A DNA stretch of 64,000 bases. It comes from Campylobacter concisus. Lineage in GTDB: Bacteria > Campylobacterota > Campylobacteria > Campylobacterales > Campylobacteraceae. The notes under the pieces were generated by a model. It ran no database searches, was not told where the DNA came from, and worked only from the letters and a program-made list of their open reading frames with translations. The stretch is from assembly GCF_002913225.1 (NCBI RefSeq), contig NZ_PPAW01000072.1, positions 1 to 64,000 on the forward strand, in the 5' to 3' direction. This document shows positions 53,525 to 63,515 of this stretch, piece after piece (within the stretch, counting starts at the first letter, position 1; each line of letters opens with the position of its first letter). A program made the translations under genes and the position numbers.

Positions 53525-53773
53525 ATGCAATTTTTACCTTGGGCGGTAATTTTACTGCTAATTTATGTGATCTACTTCTTGATGATCCGCTATGAAAAAA
53601 AGATAGCAACATTAAGTAAAATGATCGAGCAAAACAGTGATGGCATCAAAGAAAATAGAGACCTTATAGGTCAAAACAGATCGTTAATCGAGAAAAATAA
53701 ACACAGCATTGAGAAAAATACCAAAGATATTACAACAAATGTTGAAAAAATAGACATCGACTTGGAAGATTAA
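53525..53773 (+). CDS. Small membrane-anchored coiled-coil protein
   Basis: An 82-residue protein from ATG 53525 (AAAGGA site; the frame upstream has no ribosome site). One N-terminal transmembrane helix (about 5-22) is followed by a short basic loop and a heptad-like stretch with repeated asparagine-lysine units (IKENRDLIGQNRSLIEKN), a likely coiled coil. No family is recognised. Its stop overlaps the stop of the convergent LapG-like gene by four bases. Confidence 0.65.
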   Translation: MQFLPWAVILLLIYVIYFLMIRYEKKIATLSKMIEQNSDGIKENRDLIGQNRSLIEKNKHSIEKNTKDITTNVEKIDIDLED

Positions 53774-54393
53774 TTCTTCCAAAATTTCTCTTCTTTTTCC
53801 TTTTTTATCAAATTTTCGTAAGTTTGCATTCTTATATTTACTGGCTCTAAATTTATGCCATCTTTTTTTATCTTAAAATATTTTCCATCCATCAAGCAAT
53901 ACTCTGGCACCAGGTCGTAGCGCTTCGAAAGTGGCAAAACTCTAAAGCTTAAATTATCTAGTATCAAAGGCTCTTTGTGTAAATTTTCCCAAACAGCTAG
54001 CACCATATGATATTTTTTCGTATTTTTTTCCTGAACGACTAGAAGACATTTTTGATTATCTACACCAAGATCTTTTAGGCTATCACGCTTTGATATCGCG
54101 TACTCCTCGCAGTCTCCGCCACCTCGCCTTAAAAACTCGCTTCTAGTGCTCCACACATCGACATTTGTATTGTAAAAATCATCATATCTTGGCATTAAGG
54201 AATTTAAGTATGAATTTATGAGTTCTAGCTTTCTTATAAAGCTTTCGTGTTCTATTTTTTTCATAAAATTTGCATAGTGATTTAGGATATTTTTGCAAAT
54301 TTGATTTTTGCATTGAGATATATTTTTTGGAGAAATTTCAAAATTATTTGCAAAAAGTGAAGAGACAAAAAAAAGAAGCAAAATTTTACGCAT
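53770..54393 (-). CDS. Second LapG-like periplasmic cysteine protease
   Basis: A 207-residue protein with a signal peptide (MRKILLLFFVSSLFA) and the bacterial transglutaminase-like cysteine protease fold. The catalytic triad looks complete: Cys in RGGGDCEEYAI, His in KYHMVLAVW, Asp in LILDNLSF. It differs from the first copy (61093) in GGGDCEEY versus GAGDCEDY and has a basic C-terminal tail. LapG cleaves the anchor of large surface adhesins. It lies at the far end of the cluster and overlaps the regulator gene by eight bases. Confidence 0.82.
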   Translation of the reverse strand: MRKILLLFFVSSLFANNFEISPKNISQCKNQICKNILNHYANFMKKIEHESFIRKLELINSYLNSLMPRYDDFYNTNVDVWSTRSEFLRRGGGDCEEYAISKRDSLKDLGVDNQKCLLVVQEKNTKKYHMVLAVWENLHKEPLILDNLSFRVLPLSKRYDLVPEYCLMDGKYFKIKKDGINLEPVNIRMQTYENLIKKEKEEKFWKN

Positions 54394-55027
54394 GTAGCTG
54401 CTTCATCAAAAGTACAAGACCTATTCTATCTTTCACATTTAGTTTGCTATAAATCGACGTGGTGTGTGCCTTTACTGTCCTTAAAGTAATGCCTGTTTGC
54501 TCTGAAATTTCATTGTTTGTTAGACCTTGATAGATTAAGTTTGCGATCTCTTTTTCACGTGAGCTAAGCTCGCTTAGATCAGACTTTTTCTCCAAAGTTT
54601 CACTTTCATTATTTATATATGAGCCAGTTAGCTCTCCGATCATCGCTTGGATAAATTCTGGATAAAGCCAAACTTTGCCATTTAAAATCGTCTCAAAGGC
54701 ATCTTCAAAGTGAGTTTTTCTCATGTGTGAGTTTGCATATCCTTTGACACCAAGAGCCAGCAGATGTTTGCCTTCACTAAATTTTGGTTCGTTTGCAAGG
54801 ATTAGACATTTTATATTTGGAAAAGTTTCATGAATGGTTTTAATATTTTCATCAAGGCTATCTTTAAAAGCGTTTGTATCGATACCGACGATATCAACCT
54901 CGTCGTTTAAATTTGCAAAAAAATCTTTTTTATTGTGAGTAAATTTCACATCTTCATCTGAAAAATACCCTCGCCAAAGATTATTAAGCGAACCATTTTG
55001 AGTAAAAAAAACCACATTCATAACCAT
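54386..55027 (-). CDS. LuxR-type regulator with receiver-like domain
   Basis: A 213-residue protein. The N-terminal about 120 residues follow a receiver fold; IVGIDTN places an Asp near the usual phosphorylation site, but the N-terminal acidic pair is absent (VVFFTQNG), so phosphorylation is doubtful. The C-terminal LuxR helix-turn-helix is clear (LSSREKEIANLIYQGLTNNE and RTVKAHT). AAGGAA precedes the first ATG. It sits inside the lap-type cluster and probably controls it or the adhesin gene. No partner kinase is seen. Confidence 0.8.
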   Translation of the reverse strand: MVMNVVFFTQNGSLNNLWRGYFSDEDVKFTHNKKDFFANLNDEVDIVGIDTNAFKDSLDENIKTIHETFPNIKCLILANEPKFSEGKHLLALGVKGYANSHMRKTHFEDAFETILNGKVWLYPEFIQAMIGELTGSYINNESETLEKKSDLSELSSREKEIANLIYQGLTNNEISEQTGITLRTVKAHTTSIYSKLNVKDRIGLVLLMKQLHA

Positions 55028-55038
55028 ATTTCCTTATA

Positions 55039-55536
55039 TCACATATAGGTTTGCTCGTAAATTTTTGACTCATTTACGAATACTATCACGTGGCGCTCCT
55101 TGCCACTATTTGCCTCAAATTTATAACTAAAAGTAGATAAGAATTTCTCAACCACTTCTTTGCCTTCTTTTAAAAAGATACTCATCTCAAAACAACCATT
55201 TGATATGGCATATCTATATGGCACACTAAGAGATAGTAAATTTAGATCAAAGTCCAAGCTATCACTACTTTCATCGTAGCCGCTAATAGATATCTTGATG
55301 CTCTTTATAAGCTCATCTTTAATCTCTACGCCAGATAAATTTATACAATTTTCTCTTTTTAAATTTATCATCTCGTCAAAGCTTTTTTCACAGTCTTTAA
55401 AGAGAAATTTAACTACCTCTCTTCCGATTAGATCGCATATTTTGCCATCATTTACAATGACAAATTCATCAGCCAACTTCGCTCTTGAAATTTGATATTC
55501 GCTAAAATTTCGCTCAAAGCTAGCTGATTTTTGCAT
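55039..55536 (-). CDS. Unknown protein in the lap-type cluster
   Basis: A 165-residue soluble protein without a signal peptide. It has three Cys, a central acidic stretch (GYDESSDSLDFDLNLLS) and a mix of strands suggesting an alpha/beta domain. It does not fit PilZ, receiver or HTH families by eye. Its ATG overlaps the stop of the membrane-fusion gene by one base, so it is translationally coupled. A regulatory or adaptor role is inference from position only. Confidence 0.65.
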   Translation of the reverse strand: MQKSASFERNFSEYQISRAKLADEFVIVNDGKICDLIGREVVKFLFKDCEKSFDEMINLKRENCINLSGVEIKDELIKSIKISISGYDESSDSLDFDLNLLSLSVPYRYAISNGCFEMSIFLKEGKEVVEKFLSTFSYKFEANSGKERHVIVFVNESKIYEQTYM

Positions 55537-57008
55537 TATCGCTCCGTTAAAGCGTTTTGTTTTGCTTTTAAGATAGGTTTTAGCAGATAGTCAAGTATCG
55601 TCTTTTTACCAGTGATGATATCAGCTGAAACTATCATACCAACCTTGATCCTAAGTGGCTTCTCTTCGCTGCCAAGATAGTTTTTCTCAGTTTCTATCCT
55701 GACTAGATAGTAGCTCTCGCCTGTTTTTTCATTTGTCTCGGTATCGGCACTGATCTGCGTTACTTTGCCTTTTAAGCCGCCATAAATACTAAAATCATAC
55801 GCCGTAAATTTAACCATCGTATCAAGTCCAGGTCTTAAGAACGCAACATCGGCTGGCTTAACCTTTACCTCAGCGATGAGCTTATCTTCTAGTGGGACGA
55901 TCTCAGCTATGTTTTCACCAGGCTTGATAACGCCAGAGACTGTATGCACCATCATCTTACTAACGATACCATTTACTGGAGATCTTACATAAGTTCTTTC
56001 AACCCTATCACTTAAGCTAATTTGCGACTCGTTTATCCTTGCGATCTCAGCAGAGACTTCGTTTAGCTCTTTCTTTGCATTGTTTTTAAATGCCAGTTTT
56101 GCCTCTTCTATCTTGTTTTTTGCCTCTTTTATGGTTGATTCAACCCTTGGCACAGCAAGCACAGATGCGTCAAGCTCGCCCTTTAGGTCATTTACACGTC
56201 TTTGAAGCTGGATATACTCGACCTCACTAACAAGACCTTTTTTAAAGATAGGCTCCATGATCGCCTTCTCTTTTAAGACAAGATTGTAACTATTTTGAGT
56301 TTGAGAAATTTTGTTTCTAAGCTCGGTTAGCTCACTTTGGCGCTGGTGAATTTGCTCTGTTAAAATTCCTATTTGCTCGTTTAGGTGATCGATGTTTGAG
56401 TTATGCAAACTTATCTCGTATCTTACAGCCTTGCTATTGTTCGCATCCCTTGTTTCGTTGTAGTCAAATTCTTTATCATTAGCTTCAGCATCAAGCCTCA
56501 TAAATTTAGCCTGAAGCTCATCAAGTCTTAGCTTTGACTCGCCGTAGCTACTTGTAAAGTTTTTATTATCAAGCCTGATCAGAATTTGATCTTTTTTAAC
56601 TTCATCGCCCTCTTTTACAAAAATTTGATCTACGATACCACCCTCAAGGTTTTGTATCGCTTGGTTTTTGCCTGATGGGATGATCTTGCCGCTACCTCTT
56701 GTTATCTCGTCTATCTGTGCCCACGAAGCCCACAAAAGTAGCCAAAATACAGTTATGCTAACTGCATAAAGTATCTTTTTTGATGTTGATGGAGCCTTTG
56801 CCAAAACTGCTTCTGAGAGGCTTGACATAAATTTCAAGTCATAAGCGTCGTAGTTTTTAGCTTGGATGTTTGACTTGATGCCATCTACGCTATTTAAAAT
56901 TTGATCTCCAGCGCTCTCTTGCTCTTTTATGTCGCTTTTTTGAACCGGCTTTTCGTCTGGCTTTAAATTTTCATTTTGTTGATTTTTTATATCTTCTTGC
57001 ATAATCAC
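55536..57008 (-). CDS. lapC: Type I secretion membrane-fusion protein (LapC/HlyD family)
   Basis: A 490-residue protein with a cytosolic N-terminus of about 85 residues, one transmembrane helix (about 82-100) and a long periplasmic coiled-coil hairpin between two lipoyl-like halves (EGGIVDQIFVKEGDEVKKDQ and YVRSPVNGIVSKM). This is the HlyD/LapC layout that bridges the inner-membrane ATPase to the TolC channel. Its ATG overlaps the ATPase stop (ATGA). Confidence 0.92.
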   Translation of the reverse strand: MIMQEDIKNQQNENLKPDEKPVQKSDIKEQESAGDQILNSVDGIKSNIQAKNYDAYDLKFMSSLSEAVLAKAPSTSKKILYAVSITVFWLLLWASWAQIDEITRGSGKIIPSGKNQAIQNLEGGIVDQIFVKEGDEVKKDQILIRLDNKNFTSSYGESKLRLDELQAKFMRLDAEANDKEFDYNETRDANNSKAVRYEISLHNSNIDHLNEQIGILTEQIHQRQSELTELRNKISQTQNSYNLVLKEKAIMEPIFKKGLVSEVEYIQLQRRVNDLKGELDASVLAVPRVESTIKEAKNKIEEAKLAFKNNAKKELNEVSAEIARINESQISLSDRVERTYVRSPVNGIVSKMMVHTVSGVIKPGENIAEIVPLEDKLIAEVKVKPADVAFLRPGLDTMVKFTAYDFSIYGGLKGKVTQISADTETNEKTGESYYLVRIETEKNYLGSEEKPLRIKVGMIVSADIITGKKTILDYLLKPILKAKQNALTER

Positions 57009-59143
57009 TTCCCACTAAGTCTAGCTAAAACTTCGTCTCTTGGACCATCTAGTAAAATTTTGCCGTTATCCATCACTATGAGCCTATCAACAAGATCAAG
57101 CATCGATGTTCTGTGAGTTACTAAAATCATAGTTTTATTTACGGTATTTACCTTTAAATTTGCTTTTAGCTTGCTCTCAACAGTATTATCAAGCGAATTT
57201 GTAGGCTCGTCAAGCAAGATGATAGGACTATCAAGCAAAAATGCCCTAGCCACAGCTATACTTTGACGCTGACCACCACTGATGCCATCGCCCCTTTCAA
57301 AGACAGGCATATCAAAACCAAGTGGGTGAGCATTGACATATTCATCAACGCCACTTACCTTAGCCGCCTTAATGATCTGCATATCATCGACATAAGGAGC
57401 TTTTTGAACGATATTTTCTCTAACCGTTCCTTTAAACAGCACAACATCTTGTGGCACATAGCCGATATTTCTTCTAAGGTCAGCTGGGTCTATCTGGTTG
57501 ATATCTATACCATCAATTAGCACTGAGCCTTCAGTAGGCGCGTAAAGACCTAGGATTATCTTTTGTAAGGTTGTCTTACCAGAGCCATTTCTACCGATGA
57601 TGCCTACTTTCTCACCCGGTTGAATGACAAAATTTATCCTATCAAGTGAGCCTTTTGTGGTGTCTGGATAAGTAAAGCTAACGTTTTTAAACTCTATCTT
57701 GCCATCAAAAGAATTTCTTCTAACAAATTTCTTGCCCTCAGGTCTTTCAACTGGCATCTGCATGATCTTGCTAAGGCTTTGATAAGCTGTCTTTGTCTGC
57801 TCGAAATTTGCAGCTAGTGAGGCTACTTGACCCATAGGGGCGATCGCACGAGAACTAAGCATAACAGCAGCGATCAAACCACCCATAGTAAGGTGCGTAT
57901 CTTGTATCATATAAACGCCAAGAACGATGATAGCGATAGTGTTTAGCTGTACCAAAAATGACGTGACAGTCGTGATTGAAGTGGTGATTATTTTTGATTT
58001 GATACTTCTATTTGCTATCTCGCCAGTCGCCTCTTCCCAGTTCCACTGCACATGGCCACTAGCACCAAGAGTTTTAATGGTCTCTAAGCTGCTAAGGCTC
58101 TCTATCAAAATTCCATTTTTCATAGCTGAAGCTTCAAATGTGCTTTTAATCGCGTTTTGAAGCGGATCTTTTATAAAAAATGTGTAGCACAAAATAGCTA
58201 TCATGATAACAATAGGCACAAGCACAAGGTAGCTTCCTATAAAGTAGGTAACTATCAAGAAGATTAACGCAAATGGCAGATCCACAATGGCAGCAAGCGA
58301 CGCAGATGAGAAGAAATTTCTAACTGTGTCAAATTCTTTCAAGTTGCTAGCAAATGAACCAACCGACTTTGGCTTATTGCTAAATTTCATATCCATGACG
58401 CGCTCAAAGAGGATCGAGCTCATGATGATATCACTCTTCTTGCCTGCGATCTCAAGAAAATATGAACGAACAAATTTTAAAAATAGATCGATGCCATAAA
58501 CGACGCTCACGCCAAGCGCTAGAACCCAAAGTGTCTCAACTGCGTTATTTGGCACAACGCGGTCATAGACGTTCATCGTAAAGAGTGGGCTTGCAAGGAC
58601 AAATAAGTTTATGATAAAGCTTGCTATCACGACGTCAAAGTAAATTTTCTTAGAGCGCTTTAAAGTGCCCCAAAACCAGTGGTCATTGCCAGCGTCGATA
58701 AGCTTTGTCGAGCTTGTATCTTCTGGGACAAATTCACGTTTTAGATAATAAGCATAGCCTAAATACTCATCTTTTAGCTTACTTGTTTCTATCGTACTAG
58801 TGCCAGTTGAAAGATCAGGCGTGATGATGTTTGCCATCTTTTTGTCTTCGCTGAAAGATTGCAAGATGCAAGCTTTTTTGCCTCTAAGCATCAAAATGCA
58901 AGGCAAAACTAAAGGCGAAATTTGATCAAGATCTTTTCTGACAAGCGTCGATGCAAAACCAGCACGTGAAGCTGCACGAGAAAATAAAGACTTCGAGCTC
59001 TTTAGTGAAAAAAGCTCGATCTCTTCGCCATCTTTTACAGGCAGACCGATAGTCAAAGCATCGGCACTATATGGGTTGTTATGAAGTTTAGTAAAGATCA
59101 CCAAACATTGAAGCAGTTCGTCTTTTATCTTATCGCTATGCAT
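57005..59143 (-). CDS. lapB: Type I secretion ATPase/permease (LapB-like)
   Basis: A 712-residue ABC exporter. The N-terminal about 130 residues are a C39-like domain without the catalytic Cys motif, as in RTX exporters that bind rather than cleave the substrate. Then come the transmembrane domain (about 165-440) and the nucleotide-binding domain: Walker A GRNGSGKTT (about 516), signature SGGQRQS (about 622) and Walker B ILLDEPT (about 640). It powers export of an RTX-type adhesin. It lies three bases after the lapD-like gene. Confidence 0.93.
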   Translation of the reverse strand: MHSDKIKDELLQCLVIFTKLHNNPYSADALTIGLPVKDGEEIELFSLKSSKSLFSRAASRAGFASTLVRKDLDQISPLVLPCILMLRGKKACILQSFSEDKKMANIITPDLSTGTSTIETSKLKDEYLGYAYYLKREFVPEDTSSTKLIDAGNDHWFWGTLKRSKKIYFDVVIASFIINLFVLASPLFTMNVYDRVVPNNAVETLWVLALGVSVVYGIDLFLKFVRSYFLEIAGKKSDIIMSSILFERVMDMKFSNKPKSVGSFASNLKEFDTVRNFFSSASLAAIVDLPFALIFLIVTYFIGSYLVLVPIVIMIAILCYTFFIKDPLQNAIKSTFEASAMKNGILIESLSSLETIKTLGASGHVQWNWEEATGEIANRSIKSKIITTSITTVTSFLVQLNTIAIIVLGVYMIQDTHLTMGGLIAAVMLSSRAIAPMGQVASLAANFEQTKTAYQSLSKIMQMPVERPEGKKFVRRNSFDGKIEFKNVSFTYPDTTKGSLDRINFVIQPGEKVGIIGRNGSGKTTLQKIILGLYAPTEGSVLIDGIDINQIDPADLRRNIGYVPQDVVLFKGTVRENIVQKAPYVDDMQIIKAAKVSGVDEYVNAHPLGFDMPVFERGDGISGGQRQSIAVARAFLLDSPIILLDEPTNSLDNTVESKLKANLKVNTVNKTMILVTHRTSMLDLVDRLIVMDNGKILLDGPRDEVLARLSGK

Positions 59144-59146
59144 CTA

Positions 59147-61096
59147 TCATCCAATATTTTTGATTTCATCTATGTAAATTCCTTGCATATTTTTAATGCC
59201 AAGCTCAATTAGCTTACTCTTTTGCTCTTCGCTCTCAACACCGATCGCAATCAAAATGATATCTTTTGAGCTTAAAACAACATCTAGTGATTGTTTTGTA
59301 TTTGCCCCTGATTTATCACTTAAAAAGTCGATTAAGACGCTTGACTGGATCTTTACGTAGTCTGGATTAAATTCTTTTAGCTTCTCAATGCCTTTTGCGC
59401 TGAGTTCAAAGTGGTCAAATCCAAAACCAAAGCCAAGTTCTTTTAATTTTTTAGTAAGTCTAACTATACTTTCGATACTAATATCGTCTTTGTTTGGAAT
59501 TTCTATATAGTTTTTATATTTTGAAATTTGAGCGATTTTTTTAAGTGTGGCTTCAAGTTTTGAGAAATTTTCATCCGAGCTTAATATCTCTTTACCCAAA
59601 TTTATCGCCAAGCTTCCTTGAGGCAAGATATTTTCAGGCAAAATTCTAGCGATTCTATTTAGGATATGAAGATCGAGCATCGCACCTAAATTTAGCTCAT
59701 TTACCATTGGCATAAAGTATGATGCCATACGCCATTTGCCCTCGCTATCAACGAGCCTTAGATAAAGTTCGTACTGCTCAAAGCTTGAGTCAAAACCAAC
59801 TACTTTTTGAGCTGCAAATTTAAATTTATCCTCTTTTATAGAGTCAAAGATAAGCTCTTTGTATTTCTCTTTGCCGATGACTAAGGTGTTTTGATTTGCA
59901 TTAAATTCTTTGCAAGTAAAGCAGCCAGCCAGTCTTGCACTAGCCAAAGTAACGTCAGCTGATGTAAGTAGCGTCCTCATGTCAGTGCTTGGCGAGTACT
60001 CGACAATAGCAGCATTGACTGGGCACTCACTATCGTTTATAGAGAAATTTGTATAGAGTTTTTTAAACTCAGCCATGATCTTATCGTCTAAAGCTGAGAA
60101 ATTTGATGAGTTTTTACCGTAAGAAAGCAAGATAAAATCGTTGTCATTTAACCTTGCGACGATCGCATTTTGGTCATTTTCGGTAGATTTTTCTTGTAAA
60201 ATTTGAGCTATTTTTATGATGACACTTTGCCATTTTTCAAAGCCAAGAACGCCTTTTAGCCCTGCTAGATCTTTAAAGCTAACAAGCGAAGCAACACCGC
60301 TTGAATACTCTTCACTTGCTAGATACTCACTAAATTTAGTTTGAAAAAATCTTCTATTGTAAGTGCCGCTCATAGAGTCTTTATATAAAAGCTCTTGATA
60401 CTTGCTAAGCGTAGCCGCCTCTCTTTCAAATATGTCTTGAACCTTGCTAACCATCGAGTTCATGGCGAGCACCATCTTTTTAAGGTCGGTTGTGAATGGA
60501 ATTCTCTTTTGGATGATAAATTTATTATCAAGTATCGCTTCAGCTTGATCCTGCACCTTAACAAGTGGTCTAAATATCGCCTTAAGGGCGAAAAATGCCA
60601 CGACAAGAGCGATGATGATCATTAAAGCTAGAAAGTTAAAAATATTTTTTGAGTTTGAGTAAAGCTCATTGTAAGCAAGCGCCGTGCTACCTTGAACATA
60701 GAGTGTGCCAAATTTTGCCCAGCCAGTCATGATCTCGCTAGTTGCAACAGGAGCTTCAAATTTAGCGATCTTATAAAACCACTCTGGGATATCTTTAACA
60801 ATAGTTTGTTGAGAATTTTCTATAAGCACCTTACCATCGACATCTTCAAGTTTAATGAGCTTGTATCTGCCGCTATCAAACATAGAATTTATCATCGTTT
60901 GTGCCAAAGACATATCCTCAGGATCAACAATCGGTTTTAAAGCAAGTCCAAGTGAGTTTGCTGTGTGTCTTGCATTTTCACCGAGCTGGTCGTTGATGTA
61001 TCCATTTAGGCTCTTAAAATTTAAGTAGCCAACAGCCATAAAAATCACGATGCCAAAAGCTATCACAGCGATCATAATCTGTTTAAATAGCGTCAT
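59147..61096 (-). CDS. lapD: LapD-like c-di-GMP receptor with degenerate GGDEF and EAL domains
   Basis: A 649-residue inner-membrane protein. A first helix (about 5-27), a periplasmic LapD/MoxY-type domain (about 30-150), a second helix (about 150-172) and a HAMP-like linker lead to a GGDEF domain (about 240-390) and an EAL domain (about 410-645). The GGDEF motif is NDNDF and the EAL motif is ELYLR, so both enzymes are probably dead, as in LapD. In that family c-di-GMP binding to the dead EAL makes the periplasmic part hold LapG. It overlaps lapG by four bases. Confidence 0.9.
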   Translation of the reverse strand: MTLFKQIMIAVIAFGIVIFMAVGYLNFKSLNGYINDQLGENARHTANSLGLALKPIVDPEDMSLAQTMINSMFDSGRYKLIKLEDVDGKVLIENSQQTIVKDIPEWFYKIAKFEAPVATSEIMTGWAKFGTLYVQGSTALAYNELYSNSKNIFNFLALMIIIALVVAFFALKAIFRPLVKVQDQAEAILDNKFIIQKRIPFTTDLKKMVLAMNSMVSKVQDIFEREAATLSKYQELLYKDSMSGTYNRRFFQTKFSEYLASEEYSSGVASLVSFKDLAGLKGVLGFEKWQSVIIKIAQILQEKSTENDQNAIVARLNDNDFILLSYGKNSSNFSALDDKIMAEFKKLYTNFSINDSECPVNAAIVEYSPSTDMRTLLTSADVTLASARLAGCFTCKEFNANQNTLVIGKEKYKELIFDSIKEDKFKFAAQKVVGFDSSFEQYELYLRLVDSEGKWRMASYFMPMVNELNLGAMLDLHILNRIARILPENILPQGSLAINLGKEILSSDENFSKLEATLKKIAQISKYKNYIEIPNKDDISIESIVRLTKKLKELGFGFGFDHFELSAKGIEKLKEFNPDYVKIQSSVLIDFLSDKSGANTKQSLDVVLSSKDIILIAIGVESEEQKSKLIELGIKNMQGIYIDEIKNIG

Positions 61097-61758
61097 AAAT
61101 CCTCTTTTCCTATCCTATCTATTAGTTCCATCCACTTAGGATTTTGTTTTTTATTTCCACCTGGTATTGCCTGACCAAGACCTTCTTGTTTTGCCAAGTA
61201 TAGCGAATCACCGTTGAAACTATAGACTGGCACGAGGTCTGTTCTTTGTGTTGCGATTTTTATTTTACCATTTATGTTGTCTAAAATTAATGGAATAGAC
61301 TTTGGTGTATCATAATATGCCAAAACCATATGTGCTTGGTTGTATCTTAAGGCTTTAACGTATGTGAAGTATAATTTTTGAGTTGGAATTCCAAGTTGCT
61401 TTAGGGTGAAATACTTTGCGATAACGTAGTCTTCGCAGTCACCAGCGCCTTTTCCTACAAATTCCATTCTGGTAGCCCAGTAATCTTTTTTATGCCAAAG
61501 TTGCATATCATCAACCCACCTAAAAGAGTTAAAAAAATCATTTACTTTTATTAATTTCTCTTGTTCGGTTGCATCTTGCAATGAAGTCATTAAAGAATTT
61601 AATGCCGATGCCCTTCTTCTTGCATCTTCTCCATAAATTTTAGCCACCTTTGCTATCGTTGTTTGTTTTACAAAATCCCCAACAGCATTTATTGCTAATA
61701 ACGAAAAAAGGACGCTTACAGTAAGCGTCCAGAATTTTGTTTTGACCCTCATGGTCAT
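61093..61758 (-). CDS. lapG: LapG-like periplasmic cysteine protease
   Basis: About 221 residues from ATG 61758 (a GTG at 61761 and an ATG at 61752 are alternatives; none has a strong ribosome site). The signal peptide is KFWTLTVSVLFSLLAINA. The protease domain has the full triad: Cys in GAGDCEDYVIAK (about 105), His in QAHMVLAYYD and Asp in LILDNING, and it keeps the WATRMEF motif of true LapG. LapG cuts the N-terminus of LapA-type adhesins when not held by LapD. The mRNA for its signal peptide contains an intrinsic terminator. Confidence 0.92.
   Translation of the reverse strand: MTMRVKTKFWTLTVSVLFSLLAINAVGDFVKQTTIAKVAKIYGEDARRRASALNSLMTSLQDATEQEKLIKVNDFFNSFRWVDDMQLWHKKDYWATRMEFVGKGAGDCEDYVIAKYFTLKQLGIPTQKLYFTYVKALRYNQAHMVLAYYDTPKSIPLILDNINGKIKIATQRTDLVPVYSFNGDSLYLAKQEGLGQAIPGGNKKQNPKWMELIDRIGKEDL
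61704..61730 (-). terminator. Intrinsic terminator inside the lapG signal-peptide codons
   Basis: GGACGCTTAC (61710-61719) and GTAAGCGTCC (61721-61730) are perfect complements around one base, so effectively a nine-pair stem with a three-base loop. TTTTTT follows on the minus strand (complement of 61709-61704). It begins 46 bases after the lapE stop and lies at about codons 10-19 of lapG. Confidence 0.85.
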
Positions 61759-61775
61759 CACTTTATTTTAAATTT

Positions 61776-63455
61776 TTATCTTAGGTCGTTTTGAATACTG
61801 CAAGCGCCTTGGATATATCTCTTCGCAAAGCCTGGCTCAAAACTATCTGAAACCATACCCATGTTATCTAGCAATCTATATTTTGCATAAGATAGTGCAG
61901 TCTCAGTTGTAGCGATCTCTTTTAAAGCTGTGTTGTATTCGTTTTCTGCATCAAGCAGGTTGATAAGGTCGCGGCGACCAATTCTAAACTCATCTTGGTA
62001 TGCATCAAGAGTAGCTTTTGAATATTCAACGTGTTGATTTAGATATCCCATTTTCTCTTGGTTAAGAACATAGTTTTGCCATGAGAATTCTAAAGACTCT
62101 TTAAGCTCTCTTACAAGGTTGTCCATAGTTTGTTGCTCTTGTTGAACAGCAAGTTGGCTCTTCTCTTTATCAAGTTTATCATTACCTTTGTTGTAAAGGT
62201 TATAGTTTAGTCTTAAAAGAGCATCAAATGTTTGCTCTTCATAATCATCATATAAAACATTTGAGTGATCATAAGCACCTGATACGACAAGATCTAATTT
62301 TGGCAAAAATGGTGCATTTTTCTCTTTTACAACAGACTCTGCCATAGCGATGTTTGATCTTTGAACTAGAAGTGTTGGGTTGCAAAGAACAGCTTTGTCA
62401 TAAACAGCCTCTTTAGTGCTTGGTAATGGCAGGTTAAACTCAGGCATTACTAGATTTTTAGCAGCAACTTTTCTTCCATATAGTTTTTCAAATGTAGAAA
62501 GTGCATCCTCGTAATTATTTTTAGCAGCTACATAGTTTGATTGAGCCAAAGTATAGCGTGATCCAGCTTGTCTCTCTTCAGAAGCTACGCCGTAACCTGA
62601 TGCGGCTCTATCTTTGATTTGGTTATAAATTTCTTCATGGCTTTTTACATTTTCTTCTTCAATGTCAAGAATTCTCTTTGTTTGAAGAACTTGTAGATAA
62701 GCATTTGCAGCACTTAATGTTAGTCTATCTGCAGCTTGAGCTACCGTGTAAGCAGCTGAGTCAAGTCTTGCGCTTTGAGAGTTGATTCTGTTTTTATCAG
62801 CACCACCATTATAAAGGTTTTCAACTAAAGTTAAAGATGCGCCAGATACTCTGCCATCGCCTCTTCTTGTTGCAAGACCGTCATCAAGACGTTTTCTCTC
62901 ATATCCTACTCTAGCAGCTGCATCAAGTGTTGGATAGTAAGCATTTTTAGCTATTTTTAGATCTTTACCAACTTGTAAGTAGTTAAATTCTGTAGCTTTT
63001 AAACTTGGGTTTTCATTTAAAATAGTTTTTACAACTTGATCCAAAGTCAATACGCTATCATCAGCTTGTGCTGTAGCTGCTGCTTTAGGCTCAATTGATA
63101 TAGTTTGCTCTATATTAGATTTTTTAGTTGATTGAGCATTTGTGACAGGTGACTTAGCTCTCATTAAAGCATCTTTATAACCTGACTCATTTTGAACTTT
63201 AGCTAACAACTCATTAGCTTCATTTTCAGAAACTGGAGTTGTATCAACATATAAAAACTTTCTTCCACCAACTTCATAAACGCCAGTAGTTAGTCTGCTA
63301 TCTGATATTTTGCTATTTACTTTGCTAACAGCACTATCGATCCTAGCAGCGCTATCATCTTGAGCAAATGAAGCTAGAAAAATCCTATAAGGGACATCTT
63401 GGGCAGACAGCAATGTTGCTGCGGCCAAAGCACTAATTGCTAACATCTTTTTCAT
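61776..63455 (-). CDS. lapE: TolC-family outer-membrane channel (LapE-like)
   Basis: A 559-residue protein with a signal peptide (AISALAAATLLSA). Residues about 20-105 form a small SPOR-like domain (VPYRIFLASFA, then KFLYVDTTPV), followed by a linker and an outer-membrane efflux (TolC) domain from about 135, with repeated long helices (LSAANAYLQVLQTKRILDI). It forms the outer-membrane exit of the type I machine. The next gene starts 17 bases after its stop. A -10 (63510-63515) lies upstream. Confidence 0.9.
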   Translation of the reverse strand: MKKMLAISALAAATLLSAQDVPYRIFLASFAQDDSAARIDSAVSKVNSKISDSRLTTGVYEVGGRKFLYVDTTPVSENEANELLAKVQNESGYKDALMRAKSPVTNAQSTKKSNIEQTISIEPKAAATAQADDSVLTLDQVVKTILNENPSLKATEFNYLQVGKDLKIAKNAYYPTLDAAARVGYERKRLDDGLATRRGDGRVSGASLTLVENLYNGGADKNRINSQSARLDSAAYTVAQAADRLTLSAANAYLQVLQTKRILDIEEENVKSHEEIYNQIKDRAASGYGVASEERQAGSRYTLAQSNYVAAKNNYEDALSTFEKLYGRKVAAKNLVMPEFNLPLPSTKEAVYDKAVLCNPTLLVQRSNIAMAESVVKEKNAPFLPKLDLVVSGAYDHSNVLYDDYEEQTFDALLRLNYNLYNKGNDKLDKEKSQLAVQQEQQTMDNLVRELKESLEFSWQNYVLNQEKMGYLNQHVEYSKATLDAYQDEFRIGRRDLINLLDAENEYNTALKEIATTETALSYAKYRLLDNMGMVSDSFEPGFAKRYIQGACSIQNDLR

Positions 63456-63509: not shown

Positions 63510-63515
63510 ATTATA
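63510..63515 (-). promoter_or_regulatory. Candidate -10 of lapE
   Basis: TATAAT on the minus strand in the context GGTGTATAATTCG, about 54 bases upstream of the start codon (an AAAGGAT site precedes it). No clear -35. Confidence 0.55.

Follow-up and report, generated by a model that had tools for sequence, protein, structure and literature searches.

A candidate intrinsic terminator within the signal-peptide codons of lapG in Campylobacter

The lapG gene of Campylobacter concisus, which follows lapE in a 64,000-nucleotide (nt) stretch of DNA (contig NZ_PPAW01000072.1, positions 1 to 64,000; hereafter the window), has a hairpin and a run of T residues within the codons for its signal peptide. 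Its sequence makes it fairly probable that this is an intrinsic terminator, internal to the operon and placed after lapE or, in some relatives, after an adhesin gene; it probably limits the output of the operon's later genes. We infer from the features described below that termination occurs in cells, how efficient it may be, and that its purpose is to set stoichiometry.

The hairpin and its sequence background

On the minus strand, positions 61730 to 61704 read GGACGCTTACTGTAAGCGTCC and then TTTTTT. At the DNA level this is a perfect 10-base inverted repeat around a single central nucleotide; the RNA is predicted to fold into a stem of 9 bp capped by a 3-nt loop, the 5' arm being GGACGCTTA (61722–61730; lapG nt +29 to +37), the loop CTG (61719–61721), and the 3' arm TAAGCGTCC (61710–61718). 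Five of the nine pairs are G-C and the predicted energy is −12.1 kcal/mol, as for the stem of an intrinsic terminator, and a matching U tract is provided by the T6 run (61704–61709; T7 or T8 in some relatives), which immediately follows the 3' arm in the direction of transcription and is the predicted RNA 3' end of a short lapE transcript. The predicted fold of positions 61690–61745 (plus-strand numbering) has a z-score of −3.9, with an equally good fold in none of 200 shuffles. Read from the opposite strand the site is a poor terminator (T score 0.56), so that it is one-directional and oriented with lapE-lapG transcription. No Rfam family matched the hairpin at its curated threshold (best score 22.9 bits, threshold 60).

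The stem and T tract occupy nt +29 to +55 of lapG (codons 10–19, counting from the ATG at 61758), and the stem begins 46 bases past the lapE stop codon (61776). The G/C-closed stem, short loop, adjoining U tract, and correct strand are all like those of intrinsic (Rho-independent) terminators; unlike the usual case, the lapG site is 29–55 nt inside a translated, conserved open reading frame (ORF) rather than after one. This is the layout given in the initial annotation, which had called the site a strong intrinsic terminator, and the stem, T tract, strand, ranking, and codon test together argue for that reading. It had also held that moving the lapG start past the hairpin would remove the signal peptide, which proves to be so. 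A mis-called start was rejected on the same ground, and because the frame runs through the stem in the relatives as well. A GTG at 61761 is absent from the relatives, whose frames agree with a start at 61758; the ATG there is thus most likely the true start.

Hairpins with T tails were scored with a d'Aubenton-Carafa-type value, d, used for ranking only, in ORFs called by a simple longest-ORF rule. By this measure the lapG site is the top ORF-internal terminator-like site among the 54 ORFs of the window, and again in each of two genomes sampled as 20-kb stretches (G017, 400 kb with 349 ORFs; G023, 360 kb with 320 ORFs). Its d is 24.2 in the window and in the C. concisus-type relative, and 56.5 in the other member of the genus. 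When ORF-internal sites with d ≥ 10 were collected from samples of 726, 342, and 378 ORFs in three genomes, six of the seven were found to start in the first 60 nt, which make up a small share of all coding sequence.

When synonymous codons were resampled with the protein held fixed (400 shuffles per locus), no shuffle of the window lapG produced as good a terminator. Twenty-five of 29 distinct Campylobacter loci gave p ≤ 0.05 in this test, mostly with none of the 400 shuffles matching; the exceptions are L022, with a good stem and poor T tail, L024 and L025, which are AT-rich and have a weak stem, and L019, in which the frame is lost immediately past the stem. The T tail is only mildly richer than the amino acid sequence requires in any single lineage, but jointly so across 14 representatives at Fisher p = 1.5e-4, a value that overstates the evidence since the lineages are related; all of the pooled p-values reported here are inflated by sequence relatedness. 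The hairpin could in principle be a chance by-product of encoding this particular signal peptide: hydrophobic N-termini are T-rich, alanine-repeat signal peptides can give stems, and several Sulfuricurvum-type loci have null p-values of 0.02–0.09 (Sulfuricurvum-type and Sulfurospirillum-type are genus labels by inference, with Sulfuricurvum named for some contigs). Set against this are the synonymous null, the repeated compensatory change described below, and the top rank within genomes, which leave chance a very remote explanation. For Campylobacter, a chance or coding by-product was rejected on the basis of the null and the covariation.

Conservation and association with the upstream gene

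Of 37 same-genus genomes searched (counting the window's own), 34 contain lapG. A hairpin occupies this position of the gene in all 14 representative lineages, where the stem starts between nt +16 and +39 from the start codon, and also in two Sulfurospirillum-type loci. The arms themselves vary: besides GGACGCTTA/TAAGCGTCC there are GAGCGC/GCGCTC, GAGTGC/GCACTC, GGGCAAA/TTTGCCC, GGCGCTT/AAGCGCC, GGCACTC/GAGTGCC, GGGTAGCT/AGCTACCC, and others. Counted from the stem base in 16 lineages, the first pair is G-C throughout, and pairs 2–6 each occur as three to six pair types with no mismatches. The stems compared were each picked as the best hairpin in their region, so that independent support comes from the codon null test. 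The stem sequence is repeatedly rewritten with pairing and place kept, a case of compensatory conservation; the check proposed in the initial annotation, whether pairing is kept while the sequence varies, is positive across the genus. A protein-binding palindrome was rejected, the stem sequence changing between lineages. In one of about 40 genomes, the C. concisus-type G035 (locus L019), the stem is followed by T5 rather than T7, which puts lapG out of frame; the cause is either slippage in the T run, which might be a means of switching lapG on and off, or an error in sequencing.

Outside the genus, lapG loci were grouped by the gene directly upstream, large adhesins being recognized by a C-terminal DPTV.VK motif. 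A significant hairpin is present in 14 of 19 loci with an adhesin directly upstream and in 13 of the 75 others (Fisher 6e-6, for loci that are not independent and with relatedness uncorrected). The regular expression left some apparent adhesins (for example L035, L067, and L074) in the non-adhesin classes, a bias that runs against the association. Genome G195 has two copies of lapG: the adhesin-linked one carries GGGTGGCGGTACTTACTGTCACCC followed by TTTTT, while in the lapE-linked one the stem is weak and no T tail follows it. Within Campylobacter, the lapE-lapG arrangement carries the hairpin throughout. Because the hairpin tracks the upstream gene, it would seem to belong to the upstream message more than to the LapG signal peptide, and points to shaping of that message's 3' end.

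The same comparison bears on the idea that the hairpin acts on LapG translation or secretion, by slowing ribosomes over the signal peptide, with the T run a by-product of phenylalanine and leucine codons. The position within signal-peptide codons is consistent with this; T runs are indeed frequent where such codons are used, and given the amino acids the T tail is only weakly significant in any one lineage. However, many lapG genes elsewhere encode a similar signal peptide and have no hairpin, its presence depends on which gene lies upstream, and a single genome (G195) contains both states. We consider a role of this kind improbable.

Several observations weigh against termination as the function of these sites. 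T tracts are weak in L022, L028, L034, and most Sulfuricurvum-type loci, and the stem is weak in the two AT-rich lineages, L024 and L025. Sulfurospirillum-type genomes with lapE upstream are mostly without the hairpin, which is therefore not needed wherever lapE precedes lapG. The upstream-gene classes were set up after some of the loci had been seen. Finally, L119, where an adhesin gene precedes lapG, has a perfect 14-bp stem in the signal-peptide codons and no T tract, which is hard to reconcile with termination alone. Together with the weak T tracts, this means that the function shared by these sites may be something other than termination.

A rival reading is that the hairpin is mainly a 3'-end barrier, protecting the lapE or adhesin message after processing or exonuclease trimming (selective RNA processing and stabilization) and causing little termination. 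Hairpins persist with weak or absent T tracts in Sulfuricurvum-type loci, in L119, and at many loci of a second gene, cpoB, discussed below; their presence follows the upstream gene; and RNA-stabilizing stem-loops that set operon ratios are described in PMC8219983. A barrier would not account for the U tract of most Campylobacter, which is long, points one way, and exceeds jointly what the protein needs, nor for the similar tract in Sulfurospirillum-type adhesin-linked loci. We consider it unlikely on balance; it is nevertheless the main competing explanation, given that the stem is retained in some lineages in which the U tract is poor.

A proposed internal operon terminator

The five genes concerned are on the minus strand. 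They are lapE (61776–63455), encoding an outer-membrane efflux protein (OEP), upstream of the putative terminator; lapG itself (61093–61758, with the start set at the ATG), a periplasmic cysteine protease (Peptidase_C93, E-value 1.6e-13); and downstream lapD (59147–61096; LapD_MoxY_N, GGDEF, and EAL domains), a lapB-type ATP-binding cassette (ABC) exporter gene (57005–59143), and a lapC-type HlyD membrane-fusion protein gene (55536–57008). The gaps are 17 nt between lapE and lapG and 3 nt between lapD and lapB; lapG-lapD and lapB-lapC overlap. The signal-peptide codons of lapG (MTMRVKTKFWTLTVSVLFSLLAINAVG), within which the terminator lies, extend over 61678–61758, with the cleavage point inferred by eye. 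A TATAAT box at 63510–63515 on the minus strand, also read by eye, is a candidate operon promoter upstream of lapE. No conserved separate promoter was seen by eye in the short lapE-lapG gap, and one there would provide no escape, being still upstream of the terminator. The window lapG has a 98% match in C. concisus contigs. The cluster has, at its other extremity, a second Peptidase_C93 (LapG-like) gene (53770–54393), with about 35% identity to lapG over the matched part and coming after a LuxR-type regulator gene (54386–55027).

As we envisage it, RNA polymerase from the lapE promoter would form the stem and U tract ahead of any ribosome, and a fixed fraction of polymerases would stop at the U tract, 55 nt into lapG. 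Two messages would result: a short one for lapE, its 3' end capped by the hairpin, and, as the minority, a lapG-lapD-lapB-lapC read-through message; in the adhesin-linked relatives the same device would part an abundant adhesin message from a scarce protease message. Because the stem is part of the lapG coding frame, an intact lapG message can arise only by read-through, from whichever promoter it starts; and since no promoter before lapG avoids the stem, such a terminator must be leaky. It would act as a built-in brake on lapG, and on the later genes too unless internal promoters exist.

Read-through as the only route from the lapE promoter to lapG-lapD-lapB-lapC had been proposed in the initial annotation, and agrees with this arrangement; its further suggestion, that translation of lapG prevents termination, found no support. 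Such translation-coupled attenuation, with a ribosome starting on lapG melting the hairpin and so placing the rest of the operon under control of lapG translation, would be in keeping with a hairpin in a translated frame. There is also a small inverted repeat, TGACC-ATGAG-GGTCA, spanning the lapG start codon (61743–61757), which could reduce lapG translation; the TGACC...GGTC pattern recurs in L007, L020, L033, and L034 with differing loops, and a small stem here could tune initiation. But the site ends at nt 55 of the ORF, and E. coli terminators that lie within an ORF's first 100 nt, according to a review (PMC7858274, citing Li et al. 2015), escape ribosomes and give near-complete termination, ribosomes catching up only later. 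Campylobacterota are moreover classed, at the phylum level, as runaway transcribers (PMC13323073, 2026). On the evidence of these two sources, a ribosome on lapG is unlikely to rescue transcription. No competing antiterminator appears in the minimum-energy fold of the 127 nt up to and including the T tract, and attenuation seems to us an improbable explanation.

A terminator as proposed here has partial parallels. Operon ratios set by internal terminators are known, for example in clostridial ABC importers (PMC9045158), where intergenic terminators follow substrate-binding-protein genes; as at lapG, these come after the operon's first gene, with later genes predicted to be lower, and internal terminators are often only modestly U-rich. 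The lapG site differs in lying within the signal-peptide codons of the next gene, the lapE-lapG gap itself being only the 17 nt given above. Term-seq in E. coli has found 3' ends within ORFs (PMC7815308), as is predicted here, but these are for the most part ascribed to processing, Rho, or small RNA formation, whereas lapG has a canonical terminator with compensatory change genus-wide. Leader-peptide attenuation of B. subtilis bmrCD (PMC4191407), which is mediated by ribosomes, likewise places a terminator near a start codon; at lapG, in contrast, the terminator is in the structural gene, and no leader peptide or antiterminator was seen. No description of a lapG terminator was found in open-licence papers.

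Similar sites at other genes, and implications

One of the sites that rank just below lapG in the C. concisus-type sample lies at the start of what we take, from reading the sequences and without a family-library check, to be cpoB, directly after a presumed pal. The hairpin of this cpoB-like gene (L156:9082-9924, minus strand ORF) is again in signal-peptide codons. At pal-cpoB the hairpin persists throughout the genus and in almost every sampled genus of the family (L178–L207, L248–L267), while its stem changes in sequence; the tails are TTTTT in L248, L249, L261, and L265–L267, and weak in other loci. Two further terminator-like hairpins were seen, each at the start of a gene: in G017 a sensor-kinase-like gene preceded by a response-regulator-like one (L146:1620-2726, plus strand), and in G023 a ferredoxin-like gene preceded by a probable napB (L165:18404-18889, plus strand).

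In the G017 sample, hairpins beyond codon expectation (p ≤ 0.05) are present in 10.9% of operon-internal genes vs. 4.1% of others. That all signal-peptide genes carry such hairpins is unsupported, the modest excess being limited to operon-internal genes. As a working hypothesis only, this suggests a small class of early-ORF hairpin sites. Whether there is a general Campylobacterota device, in which the codons for the signal peptide or first membrane helix of the following operon gene also hold an intrinsic terminator or 3'-end hairpin, we would answer only with a tentative perhaps. Such a device would be workable because transcription outruns translation, and, if it is real, it would have lapE/adhesin-lapG and pal-cpoB as two of its conserved cases.

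If the lapG site is a terminator, one stretch of DNA meets two demands, for a working signal peptide and for a terminator, the second of which would drive the repeated compensatory change. Terminator predictors that leave out coding sequence would miss it. It yields a testable prediction on polymerase-ribosome spacing in Campylobacterota, and would give a simple account of how pore or adhesin might be made in excess over the LapG protease and LapD, the receptor for cyclic diguanylate (c-di-GMP).
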